Shown: one piece after another, positions 2,314-10,254 of the stretch
Numbering within the stretch: the first letter of the stretch is position 1
Layout of the letters: every line of letters starts with the position of its first letter
NCBI GenBank assembly: GCA_002254845.1
Contig: NKPT01000002.1
Location: forward strand, 1 to 64,000
From: Chloracidobacterium sp. CP2_5A
Lineage (GTDB): Bacteria; Acidobacteriota; Blastocatellia; Chloracidobacteriales; Chloracidobacteriaceae
Direction of reading: 5' to 3'
DNA: 64,000 bases
Notes under the pieces: generated by a model
Databases searched by the model: none
Told to the model about the DNA's origin: nothing
Seen by the model: only the letters and a program-made list of their open reading frames with translations
Position numbers and translations under genes: made by a program

Positions 2314-5300
2314 TCAGCGCTTCTTCTTGTCGTCGCCGGCGTACGTGACGCCAATCTTGGTCAAAAACTCCTTCGGCGCGATGCTGCCAATCAGCGCGAA
2401 CACGTAATCGTTTGGAATCCGGGCGATCTCGCGCTTGTCGCGGATGCCCTCGATCACGACTTCGCGTTCCGCGATTTCCCGAATGCCAGCTCCGAAGTGC
2501 GCCTTAATGCGCCCGGCATCCATGCAGTAGTAAACCCACATTTTGTTTTCGAGCGTCAGGTCTTTCGGAAAATTGGAGCGAACGACCAGCGTGACCTGAT
2601 TGGCTTCCGCGTCAGGCGGAAACTTGACTGTTCCATCCGGCTGGCGCTGTCCCGCAAGGTCCACGGCAGCCTCGACGGCGGAGTTCCCCGCGCCAACCAC
2701 GACGATATGCTTGCCCTTGAACGCGCCGGGGTCCTGCAGGCGATACAGCACGCGCCCTTCAACCTCGCCGGGGCAGCCCAGCTTGCGCGGCTCGCCGGCG
2801 TTGCCAATCGCCAGCAATACCTTGCGCGCCTTGTAGCCCTGGGCGTTCTTTGTCGTTTTGACAATGAAGCCGTCGCCCTCGCGGACGATTTCCTTGCAGC
2901 CCTCGTACTCGTTGATGACGAGGCCCAGCTTCTCGACGGCTTCATCCCACCACGCGAGCATCTTTTCCTTCAGGTCGCCGGGACCATCGAGGCGGATCGC
3001 GCCCAGCGGCGGGTCAGCGGGGTTGAAGGGGTTGAAGGCGACGTATTTGCCGGCCGGATACTTCTCGGCGATGGTTGAATACCTGCGCCCCTGCTCCAGC
3101 GCCACATAGCGCAGGCCCAGCTCCGCCGCGCGGGCAACGGCCGCAATGCCGCCTGGCCCAATGCCGACGATGGCGACATCGTAGTCGGCGCCGGCGACCG
3201 GCCCTTCCGCCTTAAGCTTCTCGGCGATGCGCTCAATGGCGAGTCGCCCTTCCTTGATAGCGTTGCGAATGAGCGGCACGCCCGACACGTCCCCGACCAA
3301 GTAGATGCCCGTCGCGCTTTCGGTTTCAAAGCCTTCGCTGGCCCCCTTGCGCAAGGGCTTCGGAGCCTCGCGGATGGTCTGCCGCGTATTGATGAGCACG
3401 CACGATTGCGGCACCGTCGGGCAGGCCTGCTGGCAGCCCGTGTCTTCCATGCACTGTTCGAGGTTGACGACGATCGCGTGGTGTTCCTGCTCGTCAAAGC
3501 CCAGCACGTCCTGCGGACAGGCGAGAATGCAGGCGTGACACCCAATGCAGGTCTCGTAGTTGATGACCGGATGCGGAATGGGATTTTCCTTCGCGGAAGC
3601 CTGCGCCCGCTCGATTTGCGCTTTGGATTCCCACCGCTCGGCATAGCGCGTGTCGATAAACTTGCGATGCCGATTCGCCAGGTCGAGCGCCTGTCCTTTG
3701 AGCGTGGCCTGCTCGCGGCGCTTGCGCAGCGTGTCGAAGGCGAGAAAGCCAATGCCCGTCAGCGGAATAAGGCTGAAAAAAAGCGCCCAATTGCCAACGG
3801 TGAAGCCGCCGAATTTGGCTGCTAAGCTTGTCCATTGCCAATCCTTGCCGCCGCGATAGATGCGATCCTTGGTGAAGGTCACGGGTTCGGGCCCGCTCCC
3901 CGCCGGACGGCGCGCGGCCGTCAGCGCTTGCGACTGGGGGTGCTGCCCGTGACAGGAATTACAGTCAATGCCCAGCCGCAGGGCGTCGGTGTCGAGGTCT
4001 TTGAGCGATGCCTTTTGAACATAGGCTTGCCCGTGGCAAACCGCGCACTTGTCGCGGTTGATGACTTTGACCTCCGCCGCCCCCTTGGCGAACGAGCCAT
4101 CATGACACTCGCTGCACTTCCAGGCGCTCGCGGAAGGCGCGACGGCGGCGTGTACCAAGTGGAATTTCGCGGAAGGATCAAGCGGCGCTTGGCTTTCCGA
4201 AAAGAGCTTGTCCCACTTCGGATTCATCGGGTGTTGCCATGCCCAGACGCCGTTTTCAACCGGGTAGCCGAATGAGCCGCGATGCGGCTCGCGCAGGGGC
4301 GAGCCGTCTTTCAGGCTCACGGCTTTGGGGTGGGTCGGCCCGTCGCGGTGGCAGTCAATGCACATGCTGCGCGACACGATGCCGGGGCGGAAATCCGCGC
4401 CCTTGTGCTCGGTGTGGCAATCCACGCACTGGATTTTCGCTTCCTCGTGCTTGGCGATGACCGTCGTGTTGAAATGATTGGTTTCGTGGCAGTCCACGCA
4501 CTTGTTCTGCATGGAAGTCGTCGCCGCATGGCAGGCGCTGCACTTGTTCTCGACCGGCGCGTTCGCCGCCAACTTGAGGCTGAGACGCTCCTGAATCGGC
4601 GCGGGCAGCTTTGCGGCCGGCAGCGCGTGCGGATTCGACGTTTCGCCCGGCACATAGGCCGCTTCCCAGGCGAAGAAGGCGATGACGCATAAAACCGTCG
4701 CCGCCGCGCCGAAAACATAGAGATACCCGCGCGGCCACGGTCGAATCAGATCGTCGGTCGGAGTCCAGTTGAAGCGCTTTTTGCCGAGGTGCAGGTTGTG
4801 CTTTTTGAGTTCTTCGGGCAGCTCGCGGGGTTCGAGCGGCGATCGGTCGTCGAGCTTCTGCTCGCCTTTGATGGCGGACTTGCGCCGCTCCCAGAAGACG
4901 CTCATCGCTTGCTGAAACCGCTTCTGTTCCTGCTCCGGCAGCGAAAGGATAGATGTGAGCAAGCCGGTCATGCCGCGTTGCAGGCGGGCGGCCTGCAATA
5001 GCCCGGTGGCGCTCAGCGGCGGTTGCGGCGGCGCTTCCGGCGGCCCAGCCGGCGGCGGCGTTGCCGTCAACGCTTGTGTTTGGCCTGACAGGCGCTGCGT
5101 CATCCCGCGTTGCTGCAAGTACCCGGTCAGCTTCGGCAGCAGCGCGGTTTTGCCGGCGGCCGTCGCCTCAGTCAGGTTGCCCAACAGGCGCGTGCTGCGC
5201 TCGGAGGCCGCGTAAGCGTCCACTTGGCGATCCACGTCGAGCGTGAGCGCGCCCTCTGCACAGGATGGGCGCAAAACGAAAATGCCGATGCGAATGACAT

Positions 5301-5553
5301 CTTCAGGCTGAAGCTCGACCGTCTCAACCAGCGCGCCGTTGACTTGCGTGCCATTTGTGCTCGAAAGGTTTGTCAGCCACCAGCGACCGTCCACTTCCCG
5401 AATGCCGGCGTGAATGCGCGACACGGTCGGATGGTTGAGCAACAGGTCACAGCCGACCTGCGAGCCGATCACCAGCCCTTCCAGTTCGAGGACAAGGTCG
5501 CCCTTATCCACAAGGTCTCTGCGCTGAATCGTAAAACGGCTGAGTTTGGCCAT
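2314..5553 (-). CDS. FHA domain - TM - heptaheme cytochrome c - TM - 4Fe-4S ferredoxin - FAD/NAD(P)-dependent oxidoreductase fusion
   Basis: FHA motif IGSQVGCDLLLNHPTVSRIHA...LSSTNGTQVNG; seven CxxCH (CSACH, CVDCH, CVDCH, CIDCH, CSECH, CAVCH, CNSCH); CIGCHACILACP and CMEDTGCQQACP; GIGPGG and GAGNSA Rossmann motifs; two TM segments flank the heme region. Confidence 0.9.
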   Translation of the reverse strand: MAKLSRFTIQRRDLVDKGDLVLELEGLVIGSQVGCDLLLNHPTVSRIHAGIREVDGRWWLTNLSSTNGTQVNGALVETVELQPEDVIRIGIFVLRPSCAEGALTLDVDRQVDAYAASERSTRLLGNLTEATAAGKTALLPKLTGYLQQRGMTQRLSGQTQALTATPPPAGPPEAPPQPPLSATGLLQAARLQRGMTGLLTSILSLPEQEQKRFQQAMSVFWERRKSAIKGEQKLDDRSPLEPRELPEELKKHNLHLGKKRFNWTPTDDLIRPWPRGYLYVFGAAATVLCVIAFFAWEAAYVPGETSNPHALPAAKLPAPIQERLSLKLAANAPVENKCSACHAATTSMQNKCVDCHETNHFNTTVIAKHEEAKIQCVDCHTEHKGADFRPGIVSRSMCIDCHRDGPTHPKAVSLKDGSPLREPHRGSFGYPVENGVWAWQHPMNPKWDKLFSESQAPLDPSAKFHLVHAAVAPSASAWKCSECHDGSFAKGAAEVKVINRDKCAVCHGQAYVQKASLKDLDTDALRLGIDCNSCHGQHPQSQALTAARRPAGSGPEPVTFTKDRIYRGGKDWQWTSLAAKFGGFTVGNWALFFSLIPLTGIGFLAFDTLRKRREQATLKGQALDLANRHRKFIDTRYAERWESKAQIERAQASAKENPIPHPVINYETCIGCHACILACPQDVLGFDEQEHHAIVVNLEQCMEDTGCQQACPTVPQSCVLINTRQTIREAPKPLRKGASEGFETESATGIYLVGDVSGVPLIRNAIKEGRLAIERIAEKLKAEGPVAGADYDVAIVGIGPGGIAAVARAAELGLRYVALEQGRRYSTIAEKYPAGKYVAFNPFNPADPPLGAIRLDGPGDLKEKMLAWWDEAVEKLGLVINEYEGCKEIVREGDGFIVKTTKNAQGYKARKVLLAIGNAGEPRKLGCPGEVEGRVLYRLQDPGAFKGKHIVVVGAGNSAVEAAVDLAGQRQPDGTVKFPPDAEANQVTLVVRSNFPKDLTLENKMWVYYCMDAGRIKAHFGAGIREIAEREVVIEGIRDKREIARIPNDYVFALIGSIAPKEFLTKIGVTYAGDDKKKR

Positions 5554-5634
5554 GATGTTTCTGGAGCCAGAGCGTGGTTGTGGGCGTCCGCTGGGGCCGG
5601 CGGCCGCCGCGGCGGGAGGCGAGGCGGCCGAGCG

Positions 5635-8238
5635 TTATCGCCACAGGTAATACACGACCTGGACGATGTGTACCGCCAGCAAGCCAAGCATCACCGAGGT
5701 TGAAATGACATGCGGCGGAAGCCAGAGCTTGAGCGCCCAGTGGATGTAAAGCAAAGCGTCAATCCGCCGGATGGTGGCGATCGCCTCGGTAATCTGCCGC
5801 ATGACATCCTGATCGGCGGCAGTGGCCTGCTTGTTCGCGGCGTCGGCAAATCGCTTGCGAACATCGGCCAGCAGGGCGTCGAGGTCCTCGCGGCGGACGT
5901 ACTGGCGCAACAGGAAGCCCAGCGACAAAACGGCGCGAATGACGCGGTCGCGCGCCGGGAGAAAGACTTGCTGAAACTGCGTCCCCCGTCCTTCCTTTTC
6001 GGCCTGCGCCTGCGCCGTCACGGTCAGGTCGGCGATTTCCTGGTATAGCTCGTCGCGGCGGCGCAGGAGGTCTTCGGCCAGCAGCGGCTCGCCCTCGATT
6101 TTGGTCAGCAGGCGTGGCCCAAGCTGATAGAGCAAAATGCCGATCAGCCCGGTCAGAATCACCAAGTCGAATGAAATCATCAGCGCCGCCGTGACTGGTC
6201 CGCCCAGATTTGTTCCGCCGTGGAGCAAAATCAGCGTGCCGGCGATGACCCCTGCGTACGTGTGCGACAGCATCCAGGCTTTGAGCGCCCCGCCGCGCCG
6301 CCGCCACATCTGCCGCCGGACAGGGTAGAGCATCACGATGATAATGCCGGCAAGGCCGACCAGCCCGGTGATCCACCGGAAGTTGAGCCAGTCCGATTTG
6401 AAGAGCGGCGTGCCCAGCCCATACTGAACGATGCCGGCCATGGTCGCGCCGCAGAGCGCCAGCGTCAGCGCGACGCCGACCGCATGGGCGAGCGTTTTCG
6501 TCCGGTCGGCATGGCCAAAGCGATTGCCGACAAGCATCGCGCCCGCCTGGCGCAAGGCCGGGCCATGAATCTGCGCGATCTCGTTGAAGTATTCAGCGGG
6601 CTTGACGCGCTTGAGCGCGCCGGTCGGGCAGTTTTCCTCGCAGTTGTATTTGTGCGCCGCGTACGCCGGCTTGCCCGTCGCGTCCTTGGGGTTGAGCGGC
6701 GTGTTGTTGCACAGGTTGCACTTGATAGCGACCAAATCCTCGTCCTGCGTCACCGGGCTTGGCTTCGGATCAAAGCGCAGCCCAAGCGCCGCGAAGGGGT
6801 CAAGCGGGTCGGCGGCCGACGCGGCATCCTTAGCTTTGGCCGGAGCTTTAGCCAGCGCGCTCTTGCCGTTCTGGGACGGGGCTGGCGGCTTGGCCGGGGA
6901 TTTTTTGAGCTCGCTGCGCGGAATGAGCGAAATCGCGTTGTAGGGGCACTGCGTCGCGCAATCGCCGCACCCAATGCACAGGCTGGGGAGAATATCCACC
7001 TGTCCGCCCTCGAAGCGCGCAATCGCCCCGGTCGGACAACCCGTCAGACACTCCGGGTCCTTGCAGTGAAGGCAGACCGCCGGCATCAGGAGCGATTGGT
7101 CAAGCTTGGCATGGGTTGGCGTCCGCGGTCGCAAAACATGAATGCCTATTCGCTTGAGCCGAGACTGCCCGTGCATCTCGTGGCAGGCGAGCGAGCAGTT
7201 CCCGCAGCGGATGCAAAGGTCCATGTCCATCAGCAGCAGGTTGTTGGCGTCGGCCAGACCCTTGTCGAGCAGGCGATCCTGCGCCGCTTTAGCCGCCGGC
7301 TTGAACGTCAGCGCCTTGGCAGGCTGAAGCGGCGTGCCGATCTCCCCCGCAGCGCCCAAGGCGGACTTCAGGCTCTCCAGCAGTTGCGGGTCGCGGTAGA
7401 GGGCTTCCACTGAAATCTCAAGCGTCTCCGTCCGACTCATCGCCAGGGCTCGGTAGGGAAACCGCGCGTCACGCACGGTTAGGGCGTTGAAGCCGAGGAT
7501 GTAGCCGGGCCCAAGATAATCCGCGACTTCTCCCGCTTGCGTCTGACTGATGCGCTTAACCCAGCCATCGCGGATAAGGATGAGGTTTCGGATGCGCTCG
7601 CCTTCGCTGGCCAAGACGTGGCCGCGCGCCGCCAGTTGAAATTCGGCAATATCGGCGATTTTTTTCTTCAGGTCGTCTGGCGCTTGGAGCTGGCTGGCCG
7701 CCGCCGCGCGACCGTTGTTGCGGTAGGCAATGTCAAGCGCCGCGCCAAACCGCTTCAGCTTGCGCAGGATGCGCAAGGCCGGCCGTTGCACTTCAAGCGC
7801 GCGCGCCCCCCGCTGCCGATGAGCGATGACCGTTGCGCTGCGCGGCGCGCCGGCCAGCACGCCCATCTCGCCAAAGGGCTTGCCTGACTCAAAAACCGCC
7901 ACCGGCTCCGCGACGCCCGTCACAAACACTTCCGCCGCCCCGGAGACAATGATGTAAAAGGTGTTGGTATCCCAGTCGCCCTGGCGCACGATTGCCTGGC
8001 CCGGCGCGTAGTCGTACATCCGTATGTACGGCCCAACCTTCTTGCCCGGGCCGTAGTTGCGCCCGTATACGGCCACTTCCAAGTCCACGCTGAACTTGTA
8101 GCCGCGACCCTCTTCATGCTCGACAAGCTCCTCGATAGCGGCAAGGCCGCGAATCGCCTCTAGAATGGCATGCCGATTGACAATTTCCTGACGCTTGGTC
8201 GAGGCGGCAGGCGCTGGGGCGGTCGTGGTGGCGCTCAT
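5635..8238 (-). CDS. Dual cyclic-nucleotide-binding domain / DmsB-HycB-like 4x[4Fe-4S] / membrane cytochrome b-like fusion
   Basis: cNMP-type domain (FYIIVSGAAEVFV...FGEMGVLAGAPRSATV) and a second one; CIRCGNCSLAC, CLHCKDPECLTGCP, CIGCGDCATQCP, CNLCN...CEENCP; C-terminal TM helices with two H-x13-H pairs. Confidence 0.88.
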   Translation of the reverse strand: MSATTTAPAPAASTKRQEIVNRHAILEAIRGLAAIEELVEHEEGRGYKFSVDLEVAVYGRNYGPGKKVGPYIRMYDYAPGQAIVRQGDWDTNTFYIIVSGAAEVFVTGVAEPVAVFESGKPFGEMGVLAGAPRSATVIAHRQRGARALEVQRPALRILRKLKRFGAALDIAYRNNGRAAAASQLQAPDDLKKKIADIAEFQLAARGHVLASEGERIRNLILIRDGWVKRISQTQAGEVADYLGPGYILGFNALTVRDARFPYRALAMSRTETLEISVEALYRDPQLLESLKSALGAAGEIGTPLQPAKALTFKPAAKAAQDRLLDKGLADANNLLLMDMDLCIRCGNCSLACHEMHGQSRLKRIGIHVLRPRTPTHAKLDQSLLMPAVCLHCKDPECLTGCPTGAIARFEGGQVDILPSLCIGCGDCATQCPYNAISLIPRSELKKSPAKPPAPSQNGKSALAKAPAKAKDAASAADPLDPFAALGLRFDPKPSPVTQDEDLVAIKCNLCNNTPLNPKDATGKPAYAAHKYNCEENCPTGALKRVKPAEYFNEIAQIHGPALRQAGAMLVGNRFGHADRTKTLAHAVGVALTLALCGATMAGIVQYGLGTPLFKSDWLNFRWITGLVGLAGIIIVMLYPVRRQMWRRRGGALKAWMLSHTYAGVIAGTLILLHGGTNLGGPVTAALMISFDLVILTGLIGILLYQLGPRLLTKIEGEPLLAEDLLRRRDELYQEIADLTVTAQAQAEKEGRGTQFQQVFLPARDRVIRAVLSLGFLLRQYVRREDLDALLADVRKRFADAANKQATAADQDVMRQITEAIATIRRIDALLYIHWALKLWLPPHVISTSVMLGLLAVHIVQVVYYLWR

Positions 8239-8345: not shown

Positions 8346-8381
8346 CCAGGCGTTTTGAAGCCTTGGCCTGGCAGTTTTTTT
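8346..8381 (+). terminator. Intrinsic terminator-like hairpin with T7 tract in a divergent intergenic region
   Basis: ccaggc-N14-gcctgg cag ttttttt. Confidence 0.55.
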
Positions 8382-8409
8382 GCGGCCGCCGCCGCGCCGG
8401 CTCCGGCGT

Positions 8410-8425
8410 GTCACATGGGGGTCAC
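8410..8425 (+). promoter_or_regulatory. Pho-box-like direct repeat (gtcac, 11-bp period)
   Basis: tGTCACatggggGTCACa upstream of the phosphatase gene. Confidence 0.3.
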
Positions 8426-8514
8426 AAGTTTCGCATAGCCTTGCAAAGACTTTTCAAGCGTGGCACATCCAGCCTGGCTTCTGTCTGACGATGTTTTCCC
8501 TCCGAGGAATTTGC

Positions 8515-10254
8515 ATGCGCTTCTCACGTTACCGAACCTTGGCGGCCGCCTTCGCGCTCGCGGTTGCCGCCCTGCCGCTCGCGGGCTTTCCAAAGCCGGC
8601 GTCCTGCGCGGCAATCCGCCTTCCAAAGCCGGCGCCCAACGGCTGCCGGCTCGTTGTGGGCATCGTTGTCGACCAGTTGCGCGCCGACTATCTAGAGCGA
8701 TTTGACGACCTGTTTGGCGAAAAGGGCTTCAAGCGACTCAAAGCGAAGGGCGCTTACTTTGCCAACGCGCATTATCTCCATGCCTGCACCTACACAGCTC
8801 CGGGCCACGCCGTCGTCACCACTGGCTCAACGGCGGCTGTCACCGGCATCATCGGGAACAAGTGGTATGACCGCGAAACTGGCAAGTTGGTCGAGAGCGT
8901 CACCGATGACGAGACGACCGGCGTCCCGGAAGGAAAGGGCGCTTCCCCGCGCCGATTGATAGTTTCAACGCTTGGCGATGAACTCAAGGCCGCGACGGGC
9001 GGGCGGGCCAAAGTCATCGGCATGTCGCTCAAAAATCGCGGCGCCATCCTGCCCGCCGGGCGCGCGGCCGACGCCGCTTATTGGTTTGACGACAAGCGCG
9101 GTCAGATGCAGACCAGCTCGTATTACATGAAAGAGCTGCCCGCTTGGGTGGCGGACTTCAACGCCCGCCGGATTCCCGATCAGTGGTTTGGCAAAGCCTG
9201 GGAAAAAGCGCTGCCGGAAAGCGCCTACGCCCGCTGCGATGCGGATGACGCGCCTTATGAAGGGCGCTTCGCTGGGGGCGGCTCCGCCTTCCCGCATGTG
9301 GTCGGGCGCGGCGACAAGCCCAACTCGCGCTTCTATGACGAGTTCGCCAGGACGCCCTGGGCCAACGACTTCCTCGCCGACTTTGCCGCGGCCGCCATCG
9401 CCGGCGAAGGGCTTGGCGCGGACGCGATCCCCGATGTCTTGACCATCAGCTTTTCGGCTAACGATCTCGCTGGCCATGCGTTCGGCCCGAACAGTCACGA
9501 AGCGCTGGACATGACCGTGCGCACCGACCAAACCCTAGCGCGCTTGCTCGACTTGGTTGACCAAAAGGTCGGGCTGGAGAAGACGCTCATTTTTCTCACG
9601 TCTGACCATGGCGTGTCGCCCGTGCCGGAATACGCCCAGCGGCAGCGGCTCAACAGCCGCCGGATTCCTTTCGAGCAGGTCGCCGTCGCTATCAAGCGCG
9701 CGCTGGACGCCAAGTTTGGGGAAGGGGCGTGGTTCGCCGGATTTTCGGCCGAATCGGTCTATTTTGATCTCGAGACGCTGGCCGCCAAGCGGCTCGATCG
9801 CGCGGACGTTGAGCGAGCGGCAGCGGAAGCCGCGCTGAGCGTCGGCGGCATCGCCGCGGCCTTCACGCGAACGCAAATGCTCTCCGGCGCGCTGCCGCGA
9901 ACGCCCATCGCCCAGCGGGTACAGATGGCTTTTCATCCGCAGCGCGGCGGCGATGTGTTTCTCGTGCCGGAGCCGTTTTGTTTTTTCAGCGACGAGGTCT
10001 CGACGATGGCCACAACCCACGGCACGCCCTACCCGTATGACACCCATGTGCCGGTGCTGCTGATGGGGCGAGGCGTCGCGGCCGGAACGTATCTGACGCA
10101 AGCCAGCCCCGCCGACATTGCCCCGACGCTGGCGGTTTTGCTGGGGATTGCCGCGCCAAGCGGCGCGGTTGGCCGACCGCTCGATGAAGCGTTGCTTGAC
10201 CGGCCTGCCGCTCCGACTCGGTCGCGCGAGCGGCAGCCGGCAAATAGCAAATAA
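8515..10254 (+). CDS. PafA-like alkaline phosphatase / type I phosphodiesterase family, secreted
   Basis: Signal peptide; CTYTAPGHAVVTTGSTAAVTGIIGNKWYDRETGK; DHG motif; gagg RBS before ATG 8515. Confidence 0.85.
   Translation: MRFSRYRTLAAAFALAVAALPLAGFPKPASCAAIRLPKPAPNGCRLVVGIVVDQLRADYLERFDDLFGEKGFKRLKAKGAYFANAHYLHACTYTAPGHAVVTTGSTAAVTGIIGNKWYDRETGKLVESVTDDETTGVPEGKGASPRRLIVSTLGDELKAATGGRAKVIGMSLKNRGAILPAGRAADAAYWFDDKRGQMQTSSYYMKELPAWVADFNARRIPDQWFGKAWEKALPESAYARCDADDAPYEGRFAGGGSAFPHVVGRGDKPNSRFYDEFARTPWANDFLADFAAAAIAGEGLGADAIPDVLTISFSANDLAGHAFGPNSHEALDMTVRTDQTLARLLDLVDQKVGLEKTLIFLTSDHGVSPVPEYAQRQRLNSRRIPFEQVAVAIKRALDAKFGEGAWFAGFSAESVYFDLETLAAKRLDRADVERAAAEAALSVGGIAAAFTRTQMLSGALPRTPIAQRVQMAFHPQRGGDVFLVPEPFCFFSDEVSTMATTHGTPYPYDTHVPVLLMGRGVAAGTYLTQASPADIAPTLAVLLGIAAPSGAVGRPLDEALLDRPAAPTRSRERQPANSK

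Follow-up and report, generated by a model that had tools for sequence, protein, structure and literature searches.

Two adjacent, co-directional genes lie on the minus strand of the window, as we call the 64,000-nucleotide stretch of Chloracidobacterium DNA analysed here. The gene for P2 (5635-8238; an ORF of 867 amino acids) is transcribed first, and that for P1 (2314-5553; 1079 amino acids) follows after an intergenic gap of 81 bp (5554-5634). Both ORFs are exactly where the preliminary description had located them, and chance or mis-called ORFs are ruled out by conservation across dozens of genomes. The neighbours on both sides are unrelated genes: that of an MgtE transporter (823-2259), convergent to the pair, and, divergent from P2, one whose product belongs to the type I phosphodiesterase/nucleotide pyrophosphatase family (8380-10254). 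The latter adjoins P2 in other genomes of the genus too. Rfam and tRNA scans returned one tRNA and no RNA feature near the pair. The window genome, a 3.4 Mb assembly in 385 contigs, contains a type-I reaction-centre match, as does the rest of the genus; its nearest named relative is a contig labelled 'uncultured Chloracidobacterium' (84% for P2).

Domain content of P2 and P1

P2 consists of two cNMP-binding domains (cNMP-A and cNMP-B), a four-cluster ferredoxin similar to DmsB and DsrO, and a five-helix di-haem cytochrome b. Pfam cNMP_binding matched P2 in two stretches (1.3e-24). The first is cNMP-A (residues 77-156; 7771-8010, minus strand, as are all features of the pair), and its phosphate-binding cassette, FGEMGVLAGAPRSAT, is encoded at 7831-7875. 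The ligand residues E124 and R133 are kept in 25 and 24 of 26 relatives, respectively. The FGE...PRxATV signature of ligand competence, with its Glu and Arg, is present in cNMP-A and absent from cNMP-B (about residues 198-281; 7396-7647), whose cassette is degenerate in this lineage and has no canonical phosphate-binding Arg. Thus, of the two cNMP-binding domains described earlier, both exist, but only cNMP-A has a full ligand cassette.

The four [4Fe-4S] motifs of P2 (residues 342-537; 6628-7215), best matched in NCBIfam by DsrO/HydN, comprise 16 Cys, all of which are invariant in 26 relatives, bearing out the four DmsB-type motifs of the preliminary description. The cytochrome b domain that follows (residues 577-867; 5638-6510; five predicted transmembrane helices) contains two histidine pairs, W655-X3-H659-X13-H673 (6220-6264) and W839-X3-H843-X13-H857 (5668-5712), and a TGLIG motif. 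The four His are invariant in the 26 relatives, as expected of the two-pair membrane domain claimed before, and they and both Trp are also invariant in 17 aligned proteins that include those of Sphingobium and Emticicia. In the same alignment both Gly of the T/SGxxG motif are invariant, the first residue being Thr in the window and Ser in type-2 relatives. PF01794 (Ferric_reduct) weakly matched 3 of the 17 members (best 8.4e-4) and did not match that of the window; a profile search of the domain against the PDB gave coiled-coil-like noise only.

P1 has an FHA domain, a transmembrane helix, a heptahaem c domain, a second transmembrane helix, a 2[4Fe-4S] ferredoxin and a permuted FAD/NAD(P) domain. 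Pfam recognized FHA (1.3e-16), Pyr_redox_3 (5.5e-27) and Cytochrom_c3_2 (1.6e-6) in P1, and Fer4 families in the pair (to 1e-8 to 1e-11); the Pfam and NCBIfam searches that the preliminary description had proposed thus returned its domain list. The FHA domain (residues 28-90; 5284-5472) keeps Ser45, His48, Asn67 and Asn72, while Ser31 replaces the Arg of the GR motif. Across members the Ser is found in 37 of 42, the His in 38 of 42, the Asn in 40 of 45 and the GR Arg in 26 of 42, with Ser for Arg in the window's order. The ligand residues, whose loss throughout the family had been named as counting against signal sensing, are therefore kept in cNMP-A and at the FHA Ser, His and Asn, but not in cNMP-B or, in the window's order, at the FHA GR Arg.

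The haem domain of P1 (residues 309-538; 3940-4629), predicted to be periplasmic, is flanked by the hydropathy-defined helices 1 (residues 278-296; 4666-4722) and 2 (residues 586-609; 3727-3798). P1 contains eight CXXCH strings, one of which, at residue 669, belongs to the ferredoxin (CIGCHACILACP), and the other seven are haem sites. These seven are invariant together with exactly seven more His (309, 369, 383, 424, 465, 468 and 538), as expected for seven bis-His haems, and the heptahaem count of the preliminary description holds. With a single helix before and another after the haem domain, the FHA, ferredoxin and FAD domains should share one, cytosolic, side; hydropathy thus places them and the haems on opposite and chemically sensible sides of the membrane.

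The ferredoxin (residues 660-718; 3400-3576) has eight invariant Cys. The FAD/NAD(P) domain (residues 790-1076; 2326-3186) has two dinucleotide-binding folds and is YpdA/TrxR-like, with GIGPGG and no CXXC. Its FAD-binding 'GD' tail, GIYLVGDVSGVPLIRNAIKEG (residues 749-782; 3208-3309), precedes the first, GxGPGG-containing Rossmann fold, so that the domain is circularly permuted when compared with the TrxR/type-2 order; the tail scores 54-98 against shuffle means of about 20. The reductase is permuted in type-1 and Emticicia proteins and has the normal order in the form shared by G096 and Sphingobium. In two relatives a permuted-FAD protein of about 790 residues is fused to Fer4_5-type clusters (L119 6501-8891 in G007; L120 3814-6177 in G009), possibly a further FAD/FeS reductase of the same family.

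Distribution of the pair and of the outer module

P2 was present in 37 of 58 relatives and had the full-length architecture in 34 of them; among 297 sampled Acidobacteriota genomes, only those of Blastocatellia had P2 in full length. Wherever contigs permit, P1 adjoins P2 throughout Blastocatellia, apart from split or FAD-less loci, so the genome survey suggested in the preliminary description found the two genes to co-occur. Several families have, in place of P1, an FHA-heptahaem gene followed by an Fd-FAD gene, which preserves the order of the domains. Between the two halves, genomes of family f7 have an AAA+ ATPase gene (G034; L114 13305-14444) or a PIG-L family gene (G022; L102 6319-7284), with the same cluster in G037 and G050. 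In G015, G023 and G055 the locus has the FHA-heptahaem gene but lacks the Fd-FAD part; the FAD module is also missing from the G032-type cluster. NAD(P)H would therefore not be a universal donor, and the FAD/NAD(P) module at the start of the path put forward earlier is kept by most members but is not obligatory. Two genomes (G007 and G009) have a second pair, and the second copies cluster together in both the P1 and the P2 tree, indicating that the pair travels as a unit. The pair is also found in relatives with no reaction-centre match, which rules out a photosynthesis-specific system.

In several Blastocatellia the pair adjoins genes for tetra-, octa- and nona-haem cytochromes and for a 9-haem LVIVD protein of about 1380 residues with a porin-like neighbour. 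This neighbour, which has a signal-like N-terminus, no transmembrane helix and an aromatic C-terminus (...FTF/FTY), was judged from its sequence to be barrel-like. In the window genome the decahaem and barrel genes are side by side on another contig (C288; L134 9675-15844), where the LVIVD decahaem cytochrome (1406 amino acids) ends in a hydrophobic segment followed by Arg/Lys; in the complete genome G001 they are likewise on the second contig. A PDB sequence search with the decahaem and barrel proteins gave no match. The link between pair and outer module in the window genus accordingly rests on co-occurrence and on the other lineages. Among the 58 genomes, 37 have both P2 and the decahaem protein, none has P2 only, 2 have the decahaem protein only (one of them with P1) and 19 have neither (Fisher 2e-13, kinship ignored); both the presence and the absence state occur inside families f4, f5, f7 and f8. 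What had been described as a two-gene system is, then, a conserved pair within a system that reaches further, to porin-like and decahaem genes elsewhere in the genome.

The same modules recur in other combinations. Seven of the 297 Acidobacteriota genomes, all outside Blastocatellia, encode a FAD-cNMP-cNMP-FeS protein. In those whose neighbourhood was readable (G096, G119, G271 and G316), it is followed by a separate cytochrome b, an FHA-10-haem protein, an HbpS-like protein, a porin-like barrel and the LVIVD decahaem protein. Directly upstream of the FAD-cNMP-FeS gene, G316 and G119 encode a protein of about 300 residues with an FHA-like stretch (L145 14637-15551 and L146 5141-6049, respectively). 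Outside Acidobacteriota, where the distribution was probed in a plasmid collection, 12 Sphingobium plasmids encode that same FAD-cNMP-cNMP-FeS protein (38% over 98%) as well as the decahaem protein, and in the one plasmid examined closely the inner cluster adjoins the outer one. Emticicia has the cytochrome b, an Fd-FAD protein and cytochromes with 23 and 40 haems. The Sphingopyxis indica plasmid pMC4 (L151 9381-19080) has an outer cluster of a 4-haem cytochrome, an HbpS-like protein, a barrel and the LVIVD decahaem protein; an inner cNMP/FAD module is not annotated in the adjoining 9 kb on one flank or in the 15 kb on the opposite flank. That sensor and redox modules have remained associated in spite of several fusions, in a further acidobacterial lineage and in another phylum, supports the earlier idea of one transmembrane electron-transfer system.

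A candidate electron path and its alternatives

On balance, we favour a model in which P2 and P1 form one inner-membrane complex, with cytosolic NAD(P)H as the electron source, periplasmic haems as the acceptors and an outer-membrane porin/decahaem conduit as the next stage. NAD(P)H would reduce the FAD at the cytosolic C-terminus of P1, and electrons would then pass through six FeS clusters, from the 2[4Fe-4S] of P1 to the 4[4Fe-4S] of P2, and to two b haems in helices 3 and 5 of the P2 membrane domain. From there they would reach the seven c haems of P1 in the periplasm, further multihaem cytochromes and, finally, the porin and the LVIVD decahaem protein. AlphaFold models from seven-row alignments (mean pLDDT 49 for P2 and 34 for P1) were too poor for testing the assembly. 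Outward transfer from NAD(P)H is downhill and favoured by the membrane potential, unlike inward reduction of NAD(P)+, and outward flow from NAD(P)H is the most likely reading of the pair.

In the cytosol, cNMP-A (through a second messenger) and FHA (through a phosphothreonine partner or kinase signal) may set activity or docking. Such input is plausible because cNMP-A keeps its Glu and Arg and the window genome has possible signal sources, namely a single class III cyclase match and 36 matches to Pkinase, 35 of which exceed the cut-off. Gating of the pair by cyclic nucleotide and phospho-protein is what we infer from these residues and matches. The part with the b haems is similar to ferric reductase/NOX, and the quinone pool could thus be bypassed. 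More tentatively, the pair might be a NOX-like, quinone-independent wire, fed by NAD(P)H and opened or closed post-translationally through cyclic nucleotide at cNMP-A and a phosphothreonine partner at FHA, its modules kept together across phyla while genes fused and split repeatedly.

Three other explanations have to be set against this model. An inward conduit, with an extracellular or periplasmic reductant, e.g. Fe(II), as the donor and the quinone pool and/or NAD(P)+ as the acceptor of electrons that cross by way of the haems and the b-type cytochrome, is unlikely. From such donors, NAD(P)+ would be reduced uphill and against the membrane potential, as established bioenergetics has it; no quinone site is identifiable from the sequence, and most members retain the FAD/NAD(P) module, which recurs in several forms of fusion. 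The module is, however, dispensable in some lineages, and the inner-membrane signature is that of PCC3 and PCC4, for which the original study proposed a flow from an extracellular donor to quinone (PMC5566968).

It appears quite improbable that the system is there for detoxification or assimilation, acting on extracellular ferric iron, selenite/tellurite or other oxidants, and not for respiration or redox balance. The nearest NCBIfam model to the window genome's own decahaem protein is ExtM of Geobacter, and a weak likeness to ExtM/ExtN of the selenite/tellurite operon, together with the HbpS-like 'haem-binding' protein in the outer cluster, would fit such a role; yet the score of 65.7 bits is far under the family cut-off of 800, and the published ext cluster has a Rieske/cytochrome b and no cNMP, FHA or FAD gene (PMC5877670). 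A similarly improbable reading is that of a device used mainly for signalling or redox sensing (or poising), with the periplasmic redox state relayed from the c haems through FeS/FAD to cNMP and FHA and little respiratory flux. Although two kinds of signalling domain are retained, with the FHA Ser/His/Asn and the cNMP-A cassette conserved, and Pkinase matches are numerous in the window genome, Pfam found no output domain (kinase, cyclase or DNA-binding) in P1 or P2, and the strict tie to the outer decahaem/porin module argues for flux.

If the outward model and its gating are right, the conduit would have second-messenger and Ser/Thr-kinase control inside its own subunits, and these built-in signal domains would give the cell a direct switch for electron export. 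This bears on how electrons pass the inner membrane in PCC-type conduits and on how bacteria switch extracellular electron transfer fast. The system is a candidate input module, in which a cytochrome b is fused to its own FeS donor and to signal domains, and a chlorophototroph genus would gain a candidate outlet for surplus reductant. The two-gene unit, with relatives on Sphingobium plasmids, offers a test object for donor, gating and direction.

Relation to known systems

Our literature search found no description of combinations of cNMP, FHA and multihaem domains and no experiment on any member of the P1/P2 system. The flavin domain shares its two dinucleotide-binding folds with TrxR, YpdA/Bdr and TrxR-type ferredoxin-NADP reductase, but in P1 the FAD tail is permuted to the N-terminal side and the domain is fused to ferredoxin and haems. 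A thioredoxin reductase was rejected because there is no CXXC (the only Cys of the flavin domain are 886, 927 and 1010, none paired), and so was a YpdA/Bdr bacillithiol disulfide reductase (GIGPGG instead of GxGPCG; 118 bits against a cut-off of 339.9). AegA/YgfT, which join HydN-like FeS clusters to a FAD reductase, resemble the pair in their FeS and FAD/NAD(P) modules, but are soluble and have neither cytochromes b and c nor cNMP/FHA domains (45 bits; cut-off 1003).

DsrMKJOP, Hmc, Qrc and Tmc similarly combine a DmsB/DsrO-like four-cluster subunit with membrane haem and periplasmic c3-type haems, whereas the window system is without an NrfD/DsrP subunit and without a CCG-type catalytic subunit. 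Assignment to DsrO/DsrMKJOP or to the named sulfate-respiration complexes was rejected, as the score is 65.7 bits against a cut-off of 200 and no DsrP or DsrK partner lies beside the pair. With scores far under the cut-offs and no NrfD/DsrP, the pair is, as the preliminary description had supposed, not one of the classical named respiratory complexes.

The membrane domain is closer to two other groups. With FRE/NOX (PF01794) it shares two HX13H pairs, on helices 3 and 5, and a cytosolic NAD(P)H/FAD source. In contrast to FRE/NOX, however, the reductase is YpdA/TrxR-like and not FNR-type, FeS clusters intervene, and the acceptor is a fused or adjacent multihaem c. The second group comprises the putative porin-cytochrome clusters PCC3 and PCC4 (He et al. 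2017, PMC5566968). According to that study, the inner-membrane protein of these clusters carries W-X3-H-X13-H on the third and fifth of its five helices and SGxxG on the fourth, and was likened to FRE/NOX and to bc1 cytochrome b; PCC4 includes FeS and further redox genes, and electron transfer from an extracellular donor into the quinone pool was offered there as a hypothesis only. The terms 'cyclic nucleotide' and 'FHA' are absent from its main text, the domain drawings being in the supplement.

P2 has the same five helices and W-X3-H-X13-H motifs, and on helix 4 the window has TGLIG, with Thr for the Ser that type-2 relatives keep. In relatives of the window, multihaem c, FeS/redox proteins and a porin also form one cluster. 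The cytochrome b domain, rightly described before, is thus not an orphan. What sets the window pair apart from PCC3/PCC4 is that one polypeptide joins the cytochrome b to two cNMP domains and four FeS motifs, that the other joins the periplasmic c to FHA and Fd-FAD, and that an LVIVD decahaem protein belongs to the associated cluster. PCC4 clusters have a porin and MHCs with 4, 5 and 10 haems, whereas the window locus has a heptahaem protein only and type-2 relatives have 4-, 10- and 10-haem proteins; given this difference in composition, we did not file the pair as a PCC4 member. Its mode of action is very probably that of a PCC inner-membrane module, and the pair is best read as the half of a PCC-like conduit that lies in the inner membrane, with NAD(P)H as electron source and with signal domains of its own. 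As the preliminary description had held, the families are known and the novelty is in their combination, the same sensor and redox modules recurring re-ordered elsewhere. Conduits of the PCC-like kind had already been proposed; the cNMP, FHA, FeS and FAD fusions appear to be the new part.
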